Shown here one piece after another: positions 1-6,837 of a stretch of DNA of 38,036 nt. The stretch lies in assembly GCA_027295505.1 (NCBI GenBank), contig JAPUKU010000178.1, positions 1-38,036 on the forward strand, in the 5' to 3' direction. The notes beneath the pieces were generated by a model. That model had not been told where the DNA came from. It saw only the letters and a list, made by a program, of their open reading frames with translations, and did not search any database. Position numbers and translations under genes: made by a program. The DNA comes from Acidobacteriota bacterium. Lineage in GTDB: Bacteria; Acidobacteriota; Polarisedimenticolia; JAPUKU01. Numbering within the stretch: the stretch's first letter is position 1; each line of letters starts with the position of its first letter.

Positions 1-458
1 TGATCCGGGTAATCGATCATCTGATAGAAAAGCCGCACCTCCATGCGCAGGAGATCCACCCCTTCTTCCCGGCGGGGCTCACCGAACATGAAGTAGGCGC
101 CACGTCCCAGCGACAGGAAGTGGCTCAGAATGAGCCCGTCCGACCCCGAGAGGTCGATGTTCCCTGTCTTGCGCTGCTCGAGGAAGGATCGCGCCACGGC
201 CTGGAGGTGCTCATAGGCGGCCCGCCAGCGCTCCTCTGGTGGTCCGCCGGGCGCCGGACCCAGTAGCTGATCAGCGAGGCCATGGGCCGCACAGCCGATC
301 CAGCGCTCCCCCTCCTGGTCCTGGGTGGCCTCGATGAAGCAGGTCACGGTCTGCTGCATTTCCAGGCCGGACGGTGCGCAGGAGCCGCAGAAAGCGGCTG
401 CCGCCAGCCATACGATCGGCCTCAGGATGGATGGGGAGACAGTCTGCTCAACTCTCAT
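1..458 (-). CDS. Hypothetical secreted protein/lipoprotein, 3' end beyond window (partial)
   Basis: Reverse strand reads open from ATG at 458 (MRVEQTVSPSILRPIVWLAAAAFCGSCAPSGLEMQQTVTCFIEATQDQEGERWIGCAAHG...) to the window edge without a stop; signal/lipobox-like N-terminus (FCGSC). Absent from the ORF track because no stop is inside the window. Confidence 0.6.
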   Translation of the reverse strand, partial: MRVEQTVSPSILRPIVWLAAAAFCGSCAPSGLEMQQTVTCFIEATQDQEGERWIGCAAHGLADQLLGPAPGGPPEERWRAAYEHLQAVARSFLEQRKTGNIDLSGSDGLILSHFLSLGRGAYFMFGEPRREEGVDLLRMEVRLFYQMIDYPD

Positions 459-538
459 GGGGGCCGGGAGACCCAGCTCTGGGACGGCGGGCCCATCGTA
501 GTGGCGGGGATCTCCTGGGTCAAATCTTGCCCGAGCCC

Positions 539-567
539 TTGACTGGGATGGATCCAGCTCTTATGGT
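539..567 (+). promoter_or_regulatory. Putative sigma70-type promoter of clpB
   Basis: TTGACT (539-544) - 17 nt - TATGGT (562-567), about 40 bp upstream of the clpB ATG. Confidence 0.4.
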
Positions 568-608
568 CAGAGGACTGAATTTTCCGTAACTCGTGGAGAA
601 ATAAACAG

Positions 609-3221
609 ATGATTCGACAGGACCGGCTCACCATCAAAGCCCAGGAGGCACTGCAGAAGGCTCAGGCAGGAGCCGAATCGGGCGGTCATGCGGAAATTGC
701 CCCGGCCCATCTCCTGTCCGCCCTCCTGGAACAGGACGGTGGTGTGGTCGGATCGATCCTGCAGAAGCTCGGTGTGGATGCCGCGGAGCTGGGGCGCGAG
801 GCGTCCCAGATCCTGGAGAGCCTGCCGCGGGTTACCGGCGCATCGAACGCCGCCGGCATCGGCCCCGCCCTAAAGAGCGTGCTCGATCGCGCCTTCGAGC
901 AGGCGAGGGAATTCAATGATGAGTACGTCAGCACGGAGCACCTCCTGCTGAGCATCGTGGAGAAGGCGGAGGGAAAGCTCCGTGAAGCCCTGCAGCGCCT
1001 CGGTGTGACCCCCAAGGTGATCCTCGACGCCCTCGTCTCGGTGCGGGGAAGCCACCGCGTCACCGATCCGAATCCCGAGGACAAATAACAGGCCCTGGCG
1101 CGCTACGGTCGCGACCTCACGGATCTGGCCCGCGGGGGCAAGCTCGATCCGGTCATCGCCCGGGACGAGGAGATCCGCCGCGTCATGCAGGTCCTCTCGC
1201 GGCGCACCAAGAACAACCCGGTTCTCATCGGAGAGCCGGGCGTCGGAAAGACCGCCATCGCGGAGGGCCTGGCTCGCCGTATCATCGACGGCGACGTTCC
1301 CGAGGGGCTGCGCAGCAAGCGCGTCATCGCCCTGGACATCGGTGCCCTGATCGCGGGATCCAAGTACCGCGGGGAGTTCGAGGATCGTCTCAAGGCCGTG
1401 CTCAAGGAGGTCCAGGACGCCGCCGGAGAGATCATCCTGTTCATCGATGAAATGCACACTCTCATCGGCGCCGGCGCCGCGGAGGGTGCCGTGGACGCGG
1501 CCAACATGCTCAAGCCCGCGCTGGCGCGCGGCGAGCTGCACTGCATCGGAGCCACGACGCTCAACGAGTACCAGAAGCACATCGAGAAGGACGCGGCTCT
1601 GGAGCGGCGCTTTCAGCCGGTGATGGTGCGCGAGCCGGACGTCGAGAACACCATTGCCATTCTGCGCGGGCTAAAAGAACGCTACGAGGTTCATCATGGA
1701 GTGCGCGTGCAGGACTCCGCCCTGGTGGCGGCGGCCACTCTCTCCCAGCGTTACATCAGCGATCGCTTCCTTCCCGACAAGGCGATCGATCTCATCGATG
1801 AAGCCGGCTCGCGCCTGCGCATCGAGATCGATTCGATGCCCACCGAGATCGACGAGGTGGAGCGCAAGCTCAGGCAGCTCGAGATCGAGAAGGAGGCTCT
1901 CAAGAAAGAGAAGGACGCCGGCTCACGCCAGCGCCTGGAGGTGATCGGCAAGCAGCTGGCGGAACTCACCGAAAAGAGCTCCGCCATGAAAGCGCACTGG
2001 GAGGCCGAGAAGAAGGCCATCTCGTGTATCCGTTCCCTCAAGGAGGAGCTGGAAAACCTCAAGAACGAGGAAAAGACCGCCGAACGGTCCGGTAACCTGG
2101 AGAGGGTGGCCGAGATCCGTTACGGGCGCACGGCCGAGCTGGGCGCGAAGCTTCAGGAAGCCAATCGTGTCCTGGCCGACCTGCAGAAGGATCAGAAAAT
2201 GCTCAAGGAGGAGGTGGACGCCGAGGACATAGCGGCTATCGTCTCTCAGTGGACCGGCGTTCCTGTGACACGCATGCTCGAAGGCGAGGCTGAGAAGCTC
2301 CTGAACATGGAGGAGCGCCTGCACCGGCGCGTGGTGGGACAGGATCGTGCCGTGGCAGCGACGGCCAACGCCGTGCGCAGGGCACGCTCGGGCCTCAAGG
2401 ATCCGAACCATCCGATCGGCACCTTCATGTTCCTGGGCCCCACCGGTGTCGGGAAAACGGAGCTCGCGCGCGCGCTGGCCGAGTTCCTCTTTGACGACGA
2501 GCGGGCCATGGTGCGCCTCGACATGTCCGAGTACATGGAAAAGCACTCGGTGGCCCGGCTCATTGGCTCTCCTCCCGGCTACGTCGGCTACGAGGAAGGG
2601 GGCCAGCTCACCGAGCAGGTGCGCCGGCGGCCGTACACCGTGGTGCTGTTCGATGAGATCGAGAAAGCTCACCCGGATGTGTTCAACGTTCTGTTGCAGC
2701 TCATGGACGAGGGGCGCCTCACCGATGGCAAGGGCCGCACGGTCGACTTCCGAAACACGGTGGTAATTCTGACCTCGAACATCGCGGGTGCGTGGCTGCA
2801 GGAGGAGCATGCGCCGGACGGGGAGGACACGCAGCGCATCATCGAGGAGGAGCTCAAGAAGCATTTCCGCCCGGAGTTTCTCAACCGGGTGGATGACACG
2901 ATCGTCTTCAACCGGCTAGGAGCCGCGGAGATCGAGCGCATCGTCGACATCCAGATCGAACGCCTGGGGCGCGTGGTCGCGGAGCGCGGATTGCAGCTGG
3001 CGGTGACGCGGGACGCCCGTCAGAAGCTGGCGGTGCTGGGCACGGATCCTCAGTATGGCGCCCGCCCCCTGAAGCGAGCCCTGCAGCGCCACGTGCAGGA
3101 CCCGCTGGCCCGGAAGCTGCTGGCGGGCGAGTTCAGCTCCGGCGACCGGATCGAGGTGGATGTGGATGGGAAGGGGGAGCTTGTCTTCGAGCGCTCGAAG
3201 GCCCCCGCGTCCTCCCACTGA
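609..3221 (+). pseudogene. clpB: ClpB disaggregase, reading frame interrupted by one in-frame TAA at 1086-1088 (N-domain ORF 609-1088; NBD1-M-NBD2 ORF from ATG 1185)
   Basis: 609-1088 encodes a Clp N-domain (MIRQDRLTIKAQEALQKAQ...); the same frame resumes as [55 protein letters not shown] and continues to 3221 with both Walker A motifs ([16 protein letters not shown]) and the coiled-coil M domain. Whether it is a true pseudogene, an error or read through is unresolved. Confidence 0.9.
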
Positions 3222-3231
3222 GGCAGCGGGT

Positions 3232-3260
3232 TTGACAGTCCGCAGAGGCTCAGCTACAGT
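3232..3260 (+). promoter_or_regulatory. Putative sigma70-type promoter of hsp20
   Basis: TTGACA (3232-3237) - 17 nt - TACAGT (3255-3260), starting 11 bp after the clpB stop. Confidence 0.5.
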
Positions 3261-3356
3261 AATTTTAGTGGGTGCGGGAGCCGGTCCAGAGGTTCTGTGA
3301 ATCGGATAAATAATGATTCATCAGCACTTTAGAATTAGCAGCTCGAGGTGATCGAC

Positions 3357-3806
3357 ATGGCACTGGCAAAGTGGGATCCGATGAAGGATCTGATCAACTT
3401 GCAGGAGCGCATGAACCGGCTTTTCGAGGATTCGTTGCTGCGCTCCCAGACCGGCGGGGAAGACCTGACGCTCGGAGCCTGGTCTCCGGCGGTGGATATC
3501 TATGAGGAGCCGGACAAGATCGTGCTGCGCGCCGATCTACCGGGAGTGCAGGCCGATCAGATCCGCCTGAAGGTGGAGAACAGCACCCTGACGATGTCCG
3601 GGGATCGACCTTCCGAGAAGAACATCGAGAAGGAGAACTACCACCGGGTCGAGCGTCAGTACGGCACCTTCGTGCGCTCTTTCAGCCTGCCGGGCTCTGT
3701 CGACTCGGATACTATCCGTGCCGAGCACCGGGACGGTGTGCTCGAGATAACTCTGCTGAAGCTCGAGGGAAGCAGGCCTAAAGACATCAAGATTCAGGTT
3801 GACTGA
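3357..3806 (+). CDS. Small heat shock protein, Hsp20/alpha-crystallin family
   Basis: MALAKWDPMKDLINLQERMNRLFEDSL...AWSPAVDIYEEPDKIVLRADLPGVQADQIRLKVENSTLTMSGDR...YGTFVRSFSLPGSVD; SD GAGGTG upstream of ATG 3357 (the ORF track begins at 3348). Confidence 0.95.
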   Translation: MALAKWDPMKDLINLQERMNRLFEDSLLRSQTGGEDLTLGAWSPAVDIYEEPDKIVLRADLPGVQADQIRLKVENSTLTMSGDRPSEKNIEKENYHRVERQYGTFVRSFSLPGSVDSDTIRAEHRDGVLEITLLKLEGSRPKDIKIQVD

Positions 3807-3830
3807 CTCTGACACCGGAAAGGCAACAGC

Positions 3831-4667
3831 TTGAACACATTCAAGACCACTCTATTACTGACCGCGCTCACAGTCCTCGTTTTGTTCGCCGGAATGGCCA
3901 TTGCCGGGCCGCGCGGTCTTCAGATGGCTCTGGTGTTCGCGGCGCTCATGAACCTCGGCTCCTACTGGTTCTCCGACAAGATCGTCCTGGCCATGCACCG
4001 CGCTAAGCCTCTGGAGAAAGATGAGGATCCGCAGCTGCACGAGATGGTCGAGAGCCTGTGCGCGCGCTCGGGGCTGCCGAAGCCCCGGCTCTTCCTGCTG
4101 CCGTCCGAGGCGCCCAATGCGTTCGCCACGGGACGAGACCCAAAGCACGCCGCCGTGGCGATCACGCACGGCTTGCGACGCCTCATGAGCAGGGAGGAGC
4201 TCGAAGGCGTGATCGCCCACGAGCTGGCTCACGTCCGCAACCGCGACATTCTGATCGCGTCCATCGTCGCAACCCTGGCAGGTGCCATCATGGTGATCTC
4301 TCATCTGGGCCGCTGGGCGCTGATCTTTGGCGGTTTTCGTGGCAGCGAAGATCGCGGAGGCGGCGGGCTGGGGGCGCTGCTCGGCATCATCCTGGCACCG
4401 ATTGCCGCGGCCCTGATCCAGATGGCGATCTCTCGCTCCAGGGAATACCAGGCGGACGCCACGGCGGCCGAGATCGTCGGCTACCCGAACGGCCTCGCGA
4501 GCGCCCTGGTAAAGCTGGACCAGGCCTCGAAGCGAATTCCCATGCAGACGAGCCCGGTCACGAGCCACATGTTCATCGTGGCGCCGCTATGGGGCGGCTC
4601 GTTCCGCAGGCTGTTTTCGACTCATCCGCCGGTTGAGGAGCGCGTCCGCCGGTTGCTGGGGCGCTGA
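3831..4667 (+). CDS. htpX: HtpX-like M48 zinc metalloprotease, TTG start
   Basis: HELAHVRNRDILIASIVATLAGAI (HExxH), several TM segments, AMHRAKPL..., SREYQADATAAEI, C-terminal FSTHPPVEERVRRL. Confidence 0.93.
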   Translation: MNTFKTTLLLTALTVLVLFAGMAIAGPRGLQMALVFAALMNLGSYWFSDKIVLAMHRAKPLEKDEDPQLHEMVESLCARSGLPKPRLFLLPSEAPNAFATGRDPKHAAVAITHGLRRLMSREELEGVIAHELAHVRNRDILIASIVATLAGAIMVISHLGRWALIFGGFRGSEDRGGGGLGALLGIILAPIAAALIQMAISRSREYQADATAAEIVGYPNGLASALVKLDQASKRIPMQTSPVTSHMFIVAPLWGGSFRRLFSTHPPVEERVRRLLGR

Positions 4668-4756
4668 GCTTCCGGGGCGCGCAACGCCCCCGCGGAGCAC
4701 CTGCGACCCTGCCGCAGCGGTGCGGGTACCTCGTGCCGGCACCTGTTGATCTGACC

Positions 4757-6097
4757 ATGAGACTCCAACCACATATCCTCGTCGCTTTCCTGGTGCTGGT
4801 TGCGCTCGCTGCCGGTGTGGAACCGCATGCGCTGGCCCAGGAGCCCGCAGAGAACGGGCAGGTGTCGCGGCGTAACCCTACCGTCGAGGTCGTGGAGCGA
4901 GTGGGGCCGGCGGTGGTGAACATCTCCACCGAGCAGCGCGTCAAGAATCCGTTCTACTCATCCCTGTTCGAGCTGCTCGAACCACCCCAGAGGCGGGACG
5001 AGCGCACTCTCAACAACCTGGGGTCGGGCGTCATCGTTGATCCGGCCGGTTACATCCTCACAAACGAACATGTCATCGTCGGCGCTTCTTACATCAAGGT
5101 GACGGGCGCCGACGGCACTGAGTACGATGCCGAGGTCAAGGGGGTGGACCCGCGCTCCGACCTGGCGATCCTGAAGGTGGAGAGCCGGGAACCGCTGCCC
5201 GCGGTAACCATGGGGCGTTCGAGCGATCTCATGATCGGCGAGGACGTGGTGGCCATCGGCAATCCGTTTGGCCTCAGCAACACGGTGACGACCGGCGTGA
5301 TCTCGGCCCTGCGGCGCTCGGTGCGCTCCGGTGAACGCCTGTACACGGACTTCATCCAGACCGATGCCAGCATCAACCCCGGAAACAGCGGCGGCCCCCT
5401 GTTGAACGTCCGCGGGGAGCTCGTGGGCGTTAACACCGCCATTTACGGGGAAGGTCACGGAATCGGCTTTGCCATCCCGGTCGATCGAGCCCGCCGCATC
5501 GTGGAAGATCTCATCCGCTACGGTGAGGTGCGATCCACCTGGATCGGCATCGAGGTGCATGAGACCCGGATTGGCCTGGTGGTTCGACAGGTGTACGCAG
5601 GCTCTCCTGCAGCCCAGGCCGGCCTCGAGCCCGGCGACTGGATCCGTACGGCGGCGGCGGTTCCGCTGAGGAACCGGTTCGAGCTCGACACCACCCTGAG
5701 CCAGCTGCGTCCGGGGGAGAAGATTCTTCTCGGTGTGGAGCGCGACCGCCAGAACCTCGACCTCGAGGTGACGGTTCAGGAGTTTCCACTGCAGGCCGCC
5801 GAGCAGCTGGCATACGATGTCATGGGGATCGCGGTTCGGCCAATCCCCGAAGACTGGCGGGGACAGGTGCCGTTCAAGTCGGAGATAGGAGTCCTCATCG
5901 ACAAAGTACGTCCGCTCAGCCGGGCTGCGCAGAGAGGGTTCCGCCGGGGTGATGTGGTGATTCAGATGAACGGACTTCCCATGCGCAACGTGGACGCGTT
6001 CCGCAGGGCCGTGGCCCGCAGCCTGGGGCGCCATTCGGTGTTGCTTCTGATCCAGCGTGGACATTTTCGCCACTACGTAACCATGGAGCTGTCATGA
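4757..6097 (+). CDS. DegP/HtrA-like periplasmic trypsin-type serine protease with C-terminal PDZ region
   Basis: Signal peptide MRLQPHILVAFLVLVALAAGVEPHALAQ; catalytic contexts ILTNEHVI, DLAILKVE, NPGNSGGPLLN; two PDZ-like stretches. ORF track opens at GTG 4733; ATG 4757 precedes the signal peptide. Confidence 0.92.
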   Translation: MRLQPHILVAFLVLVALAAGVEPHALAQEPAENGQVSRRNPTVEVVERVGPAVVNISTEQRVKNPFYSSLFELLEPPQRRDERTLNNLGSGVIVDPAGYILTNEHVIVGASYIKVTGADGTEYDAEVKGVDPRSDLAILKVESREPLPAVTMGRSSDLMIGEDVVAIGNPFGLSNTVTTGVISALRRSVRSGERLYTDFIQTDASINPGNSGGPLLNVRGELVGVNTAIYGEGHGIGFAIPVDRARRIVEDLIRYGEVRSTWIGIEVHETRIGLVVRQVYAGSPAAQAGLEPGDWIRTAAAVPLRNRFELDTTLSQLRPGEKILLGVERDRQNLDLEVTVQEFPLQAAEQLAYDVMGIAVRPIPEDWRGQVPFKSEIGVLIDKVRPLSRAAQRGFRRGDVVIQMNGLPMRNVDAFRRAVARSLGRHSVLLLIQRGHFRHYVTMELS

Positions 6098-6837
6098 GCG
6101 AAGAGAAAGAAGAAAACGTCCCGCTGGAGGACGGACCAGGGGCCGCGGACGTCGAGGATGATGCCGCTGAGCGGCGGCCACGAAGGAAACGGAGTCCCAT
6201 GAAGGTCGTGGACCGTCGCTTCTGGGCCAGAGAAGAGCAAGGCGACGAGCAGGAGCCCGACTCCTCGGAAGCTTCCACTTATCCCAAGTATGTCCAGGAG
6301 CTGCAGGCGCAGCTCGAGGAAAGCCGCGGGCGCTTGCGCGAGCTGACAGCAGCCTACCGCCAGACACAGCAGGAGACCGATGGAATCCGCCAGCGCCTGA
6401 ACCGCGACCTCGATCGTAGGGTCTCCCTTGCCAAAGGGGATCTTTTCCGGGAGCTGCTCGAGGTTGCGGACAACCTTGAGCGCGCGCTCGGTTCGGTGGG
6501 GGAGGAGTCTCAGGCGAATGATCTGGCGCGTGGAGTCAATCAGGTGCTCTTACAGATGCGCCGTCTGCTCTCCGCTCAGGGAGTTGAGGAGCTCGAGGTG
6601 GCGAACAGCCAGTTTGATCCCGAAGTGGCAGAAGCGATCGAGGTGCGCGCCATCGATCGAGCCGAAGAGGACGGCGTGGTCATCGAGGTGGTGCAGAGAG
6701 GCTACCGTTATTCCGGACGCACCTTGCGTCCGGCGCGTGTCGTGGTGGGCAGAGCCGACGTCCCGGAAAAAGCGAAGGCGCAGCCTGCGGAAGGCGCGGC
6801 GGAGGCCGATGGCAATGGATCGACGGAAAGCCTCTAG
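6094..6837 (+). CDS. grpE: GrpE nucleotide exchange factor
   Basis: FRELLEVADNLERAL..., GVNQVLLQMRRLLSAQGVEELE...FDPEVAEAIEV..., GYRYSGRTLRPARVVVG; ATGA overlap with the preceding protease. Confidence 0.9.
   Translation: MSEEKEENVPLEDGPGAADVEDDAAERRPRRKRSPMKVVDRRFWAREEQGDEQEPDSSEASTYPKYVQELQAQLEESRGRLRELTAAYRQTQQETDGIRQRLNRDLDRRVSLAKGDLFRELLEVADNLERALGSVGEESQANDLARGVNQVLLQMRRLLSAQGVEELEVANSQFDPEVAEAIEVRAIDRAEEDGVVIEVVQRGYRYSGRTLRPARVVVGRADVPEKAKAQPAEGAAEADGNGSTESL

Follow-up and report, generated by a model that had tools for sequence, protein, structure and literature searches.

The clpB gene of this uncultured Acidobacteriota genome carries an in-frame TAA at codon 160. This stop can almost certainly be put down to a commonplace point mutation or an error in the sequence, and it does not point to any new way of making ClpB. 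With high probability only one isolated base change is involved, which would be a nonsense mutation of recent date or an error in the assembly consensus. The window analyzed, i.e. the whole stretch of 38,036 nucleotides, is contig C88 of a bin of 2.92 Mb in 259 contigs that is 95% complete.

The interrupted clpB frame

Read from the ATG at position 609, the clpB frame reaches TAA at 1086-1088 (GAG GAC AAA TAA CAG GCC CTG, 1077-1097) and then continues to a TGA at 3219-3221 (codon 871), the sole other stop in the frame. The initial annotation, which had reported this stop and an open frame to 3221, is borne out by re-reading the sequence. The part of the gene that precedes the TAA (609-1085, forward strand) is an open frame matching the N-domain family Clp_N (PF02861). 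The part that follows it (1089-3221, forward strand) is made up of 710 codons without frameshift or second stop and covers the linker, NBD1, the middle domain, NBD2, D2-small and the terminal TGA, so that both AAA modules and ClpB_D2-small lie behind the interruption. If the TAA is read through, the product has the full order Clp_N, AAA, middle region, AAA_2 and D2-small, and only then does it score above the cut-off of the NCBIfam ClpB model TIGR03346 (1324.2 bits vs 1232.1). The Walker A and Walker B motifs and the pore loop of NBD2 are intact. The coding signal is strong on either side of the stop, with a GC3 of 0.77-0.87 and an unchanged codon bias after it. The remaining tyrosine codons of the gene are 11 TAC and one TAT, each of them one base away from TAA.

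The stop had been described as lying precisely at the junction of the N-domain and NBD1. It does fall between the two domains, but within the linker that leads to NBD1, about 12 residues past Clp_N, whose last residue is 147. We consider this position as descriptive only, since a lone chance event must land somewhere in the ~870 codons of the gene.

Upstream of clpB, a weak match to a sigma-70-like promoter (TTGACT-17-TATGGT) is found on the forward strand at 539-567. The gene is the first of a protein-quality-control cluster encoded on one strand (609-6837 of the window), where it is followed by hsp20, an M48 peptidase, a trypsin-PDZ protease and grpE. No second full ClpB is encoded in the bin: the remaining Clp-type ATPases (frames of 825, 1007 and 639 amino acids) score below the ClpB cut-off and were rejected as backup copies. 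The search of the bin for an alternative haplotype of the TAA site gave a single match only. Elsewhere in the bin, the ends of two contigs (C97, 1-350, and C30, 1-350) overlap over 350 bases in opposite orientation with 97.4% identity. This points to the presence of more than one strain in the bin or to a paralogue of nearly the same sequence.

Other ClpB sequences and other in-frame stops

The site occupied by the TAA was compared in 108 other aligned ClpB sequences, a count that includes two duplicate loci and excludes the two ClpC-type loci from the same bin. The residue is Tyr in 81 of them, Phe in 21, Met in five and Leu in one, and none has a stop; the consensus of the relatives around codon 160 is PEDK(Y/F)QAL. 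The tyrosine that the initial annotation expected at this codon is present in about three quarters of them. The outcome that it had named as a refutation, relatives with Tyr and a stop in this assembly only, is largely what was observed, the closest relatives in the comparison being members of the same class with ~66% identity. Among the ~155 matches listed for residues 1-353 (the best matches in 396 genomes from the same phylum), an internal stop was present only in this genome. Internal stops were also flagged in the clpB of other genomes; wherever the fetched locus placed the stop in the alignment, it was at residue 859 or beyond.

One genome of the same class (G036; contig C97, ~2350) has lost ~80 bases of the linker between the N-domain and NBD1 and also has a frameshift in clpB. 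This break was rejected as a shared design, as a short GGCA repeat at the join makes it look like an independent deletion or a mis-join. The seemingly shortened ClpBs from four other genomes (G040, G071, G130 and G143) are sequences that run into a contig end.

A scan for stops with coding signal on both flanks covered 1.03 Mb of the bin and is bound to miss some cases. It detected a CMD/AhpD-like gene (contig C5, 3433-3909, minus strand) with a TGA at ~3721, in the place of the catalytic Cys (GCEY-TGA-TRAHT). A TGA at the same codon is found in at least 13 CMD/AhpD-like relatives from the same class or phylum, and the more distant homologues have Cys. Judging from these sequences, the TGA-bearing proteins are likely a selenoprotein family. 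Neither a SelB above the cut-off nor a distinct tRNA-Sec was found in the 95%-complete bin, and the selenocysteine machinery may be encoded in its missing part. The scan also detected an amino acid permease (contig C97 of the bin, 2-1138, minus strand) with a lone TAG at 452, where the nearest relative has TGG. Together, the permease TAG and the clpB TAA amount to about two isolated nonsense events in the 1.03 Mb scanned. In its distribution among relatives, the clpB stop resembles the permease TAG and not the CMD TGA: conservation, which is expected from recoding, is observed for the latter and is lacking for the clpB TAA. From this pattern we infer that the sampled strain would carry a recent nonsense mutation in an otherwise ordinary clpB, or else that the assembly consensus would contain an error.

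Improbable alternatives: readthrough, split protein and gene decay

Four explanations had been offered in the initial annotation. Two of them, sequence error and fresh nonsense mutation, fit all the findings, whereas readthrough and a deliberately split protein are unsupported, the stop being neither conserved nor accompanied by an RNA structure.

In the case of readthrough, a near-cognate or suppressor tRNA would put a residue at the UAA and allow the production of low-level full-length ClpB. The intact frame and conserved motifs behind the TAA are compatible with this possibility, and so is the following codon, CAG, which after a stop loosely resembles known leaky contexts. Nevertheless, a programmed stop should be either conserved or assisted by a helper, and the TAA at codon 160 is found in 0 of the 108 other ClpB sequences. 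The RNA over the 120 bases from the TAA is no more stable than its shuffled versions (z = -0.02), and an Rfam search gave no match above threshold. None of the 29 tRNA matches reads UAA, in a bin that is 95% complete and whose tRNA set looks incomplete. Moreover, TAA serves as a normal stop codon: of the 664 long open frames counted in the scanned 1.03 Mb, some of which are not genes, ~85 end with it. A genome-wide reassignment of TAA was ruled out, as many long frames close with this codon. Readthrough therefore appears very improbable.

A second possibility is that the N-domain ends at the TAA and that the body of ClpB is re-initiated, either at the non-standard CTG at 1095 or at the ATG at 1185-1187 (forward strand), which is the first standard start codon after the stop. 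Both candidates are preceded by purine-rich stretches, GAGGA (1077-1081) 13 bases upstream of the CTG and GAGGAG ~12 bases upstream of the ATG, and ClpB bodies devoid of the N-domain are known to work in Escherichia coli and Mycobacterium tuberculosis (PMC6168691). Yet, these stretches are also the codons for conserved residues (PED and DEE, respectively) and thus provide no evidence of selection. The initial annotation had correctly read from the sequence that the frame offers no ATG, GTG or TTG from the TAA up to 1185 and that a restart at this ATG would cost the KLDPVIxRDEEI motif; the segment dropped extends to KLDPVIxRDEEIRR, and a start at the CTG would retain it. In addition, the usual internal start of ClpB lies upstream of the TAA, and a similarly split clpB was found in no relative. 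Such a split is very improbable as well, and there is just as slight a chance of a lineage-specific arrangement in which the TAA uncouples a free N-domain from a disaggregase that lacks this domain and has a start of its own. Taken together, a split ClpB and programmed readthrough account for under a tenth of the probability.

Finally, the loss of function could be older and clpB a decaying pseudogene in this lineage. The sequence deviates at three of 176 nearly invariant positions (G184A, A654S and D701E), against ~0.6 expected, which ranks it in the top five of the 106 sequences for such deviations. One of the three is codon 184, which encodes Ala (GCC, 1158-1160, forward strand) where all 105 other sequences have the Gly of VIGRDEE. 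However, four other sequences that are intact deviate equally or more, so this sign of decay is weak, and the 710 codons behind the TAA have kept both their frame and their codon bias. The earlier argument that the intact downstream frame speaks against an old pseudogene thus holds, with the reservation that G184A, unique among the 106 sequences, hints mildly at a relaxation of constraint. Decay of the gene is hardly probable.

Consequences for ClpB and relation to known systems

As clpB is heat-protective and present in a single copy, it would be a little surprising to find a null allele of it fixed. In many bacteria, nevertheless, clpB is not essential. If the TAA is real, translation would stop after the N-domain and we infer that no product would be made beyond it. 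The shorter isoform ClpB-deltaN arises from an internal start, which is the GUG at codon 149 in E. coli, and it is also known in M. tuberculosis (PMC6168691). In the gene studied here, codon 145 is a GTG (1041-1043, forward strand), near the position of the E. coli internal start and upstream of the TAA. Since the stop lies downstream of this position, it would cut both isoforms, and a real TAA would leave an allele that yields no working ClpB, neither full length nor deltaN.

An interrupted gene in one assembled genome is of little importance in itself, although the strain would be a natural clpB-null if the mutation were real. Our search of the literature on premature stops in assembled genomes found nothing useful. 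The case is a useful reminder that, when a conserved gene in an assembly is interrupted by a lone in-frame stop, the cause is usually mutation or error, and the CMD TGA, common to relatives and present in the same bin, illustrates what real recoding looks like.

Compared to the ClpB/Hsp100 disaggregases (TIGR03346), which are expected to have an unbroken frame, this gene differs by the TAA at codon 160 and by the Ala that replaces the invariant Gly of VIGRDEE. The ClpB-deltaN isoforms of E. coli and M. tuberculosis (PMC6168691) involve the same linker between the N-domain and NBD1 that holds the break here, but their internal start is upstream of the TAA position and their frame is unbroken, whereas here the TAA would cut deltaN as well. 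The gene is most alike to the ordinary nonsense alleles and consensus errors of assembled genomes, with which it shares a single stop, an intact frame and the absence of the stop from all relatives; the permease TAG from the same bin is a similar case, and no difference from this class was seen.
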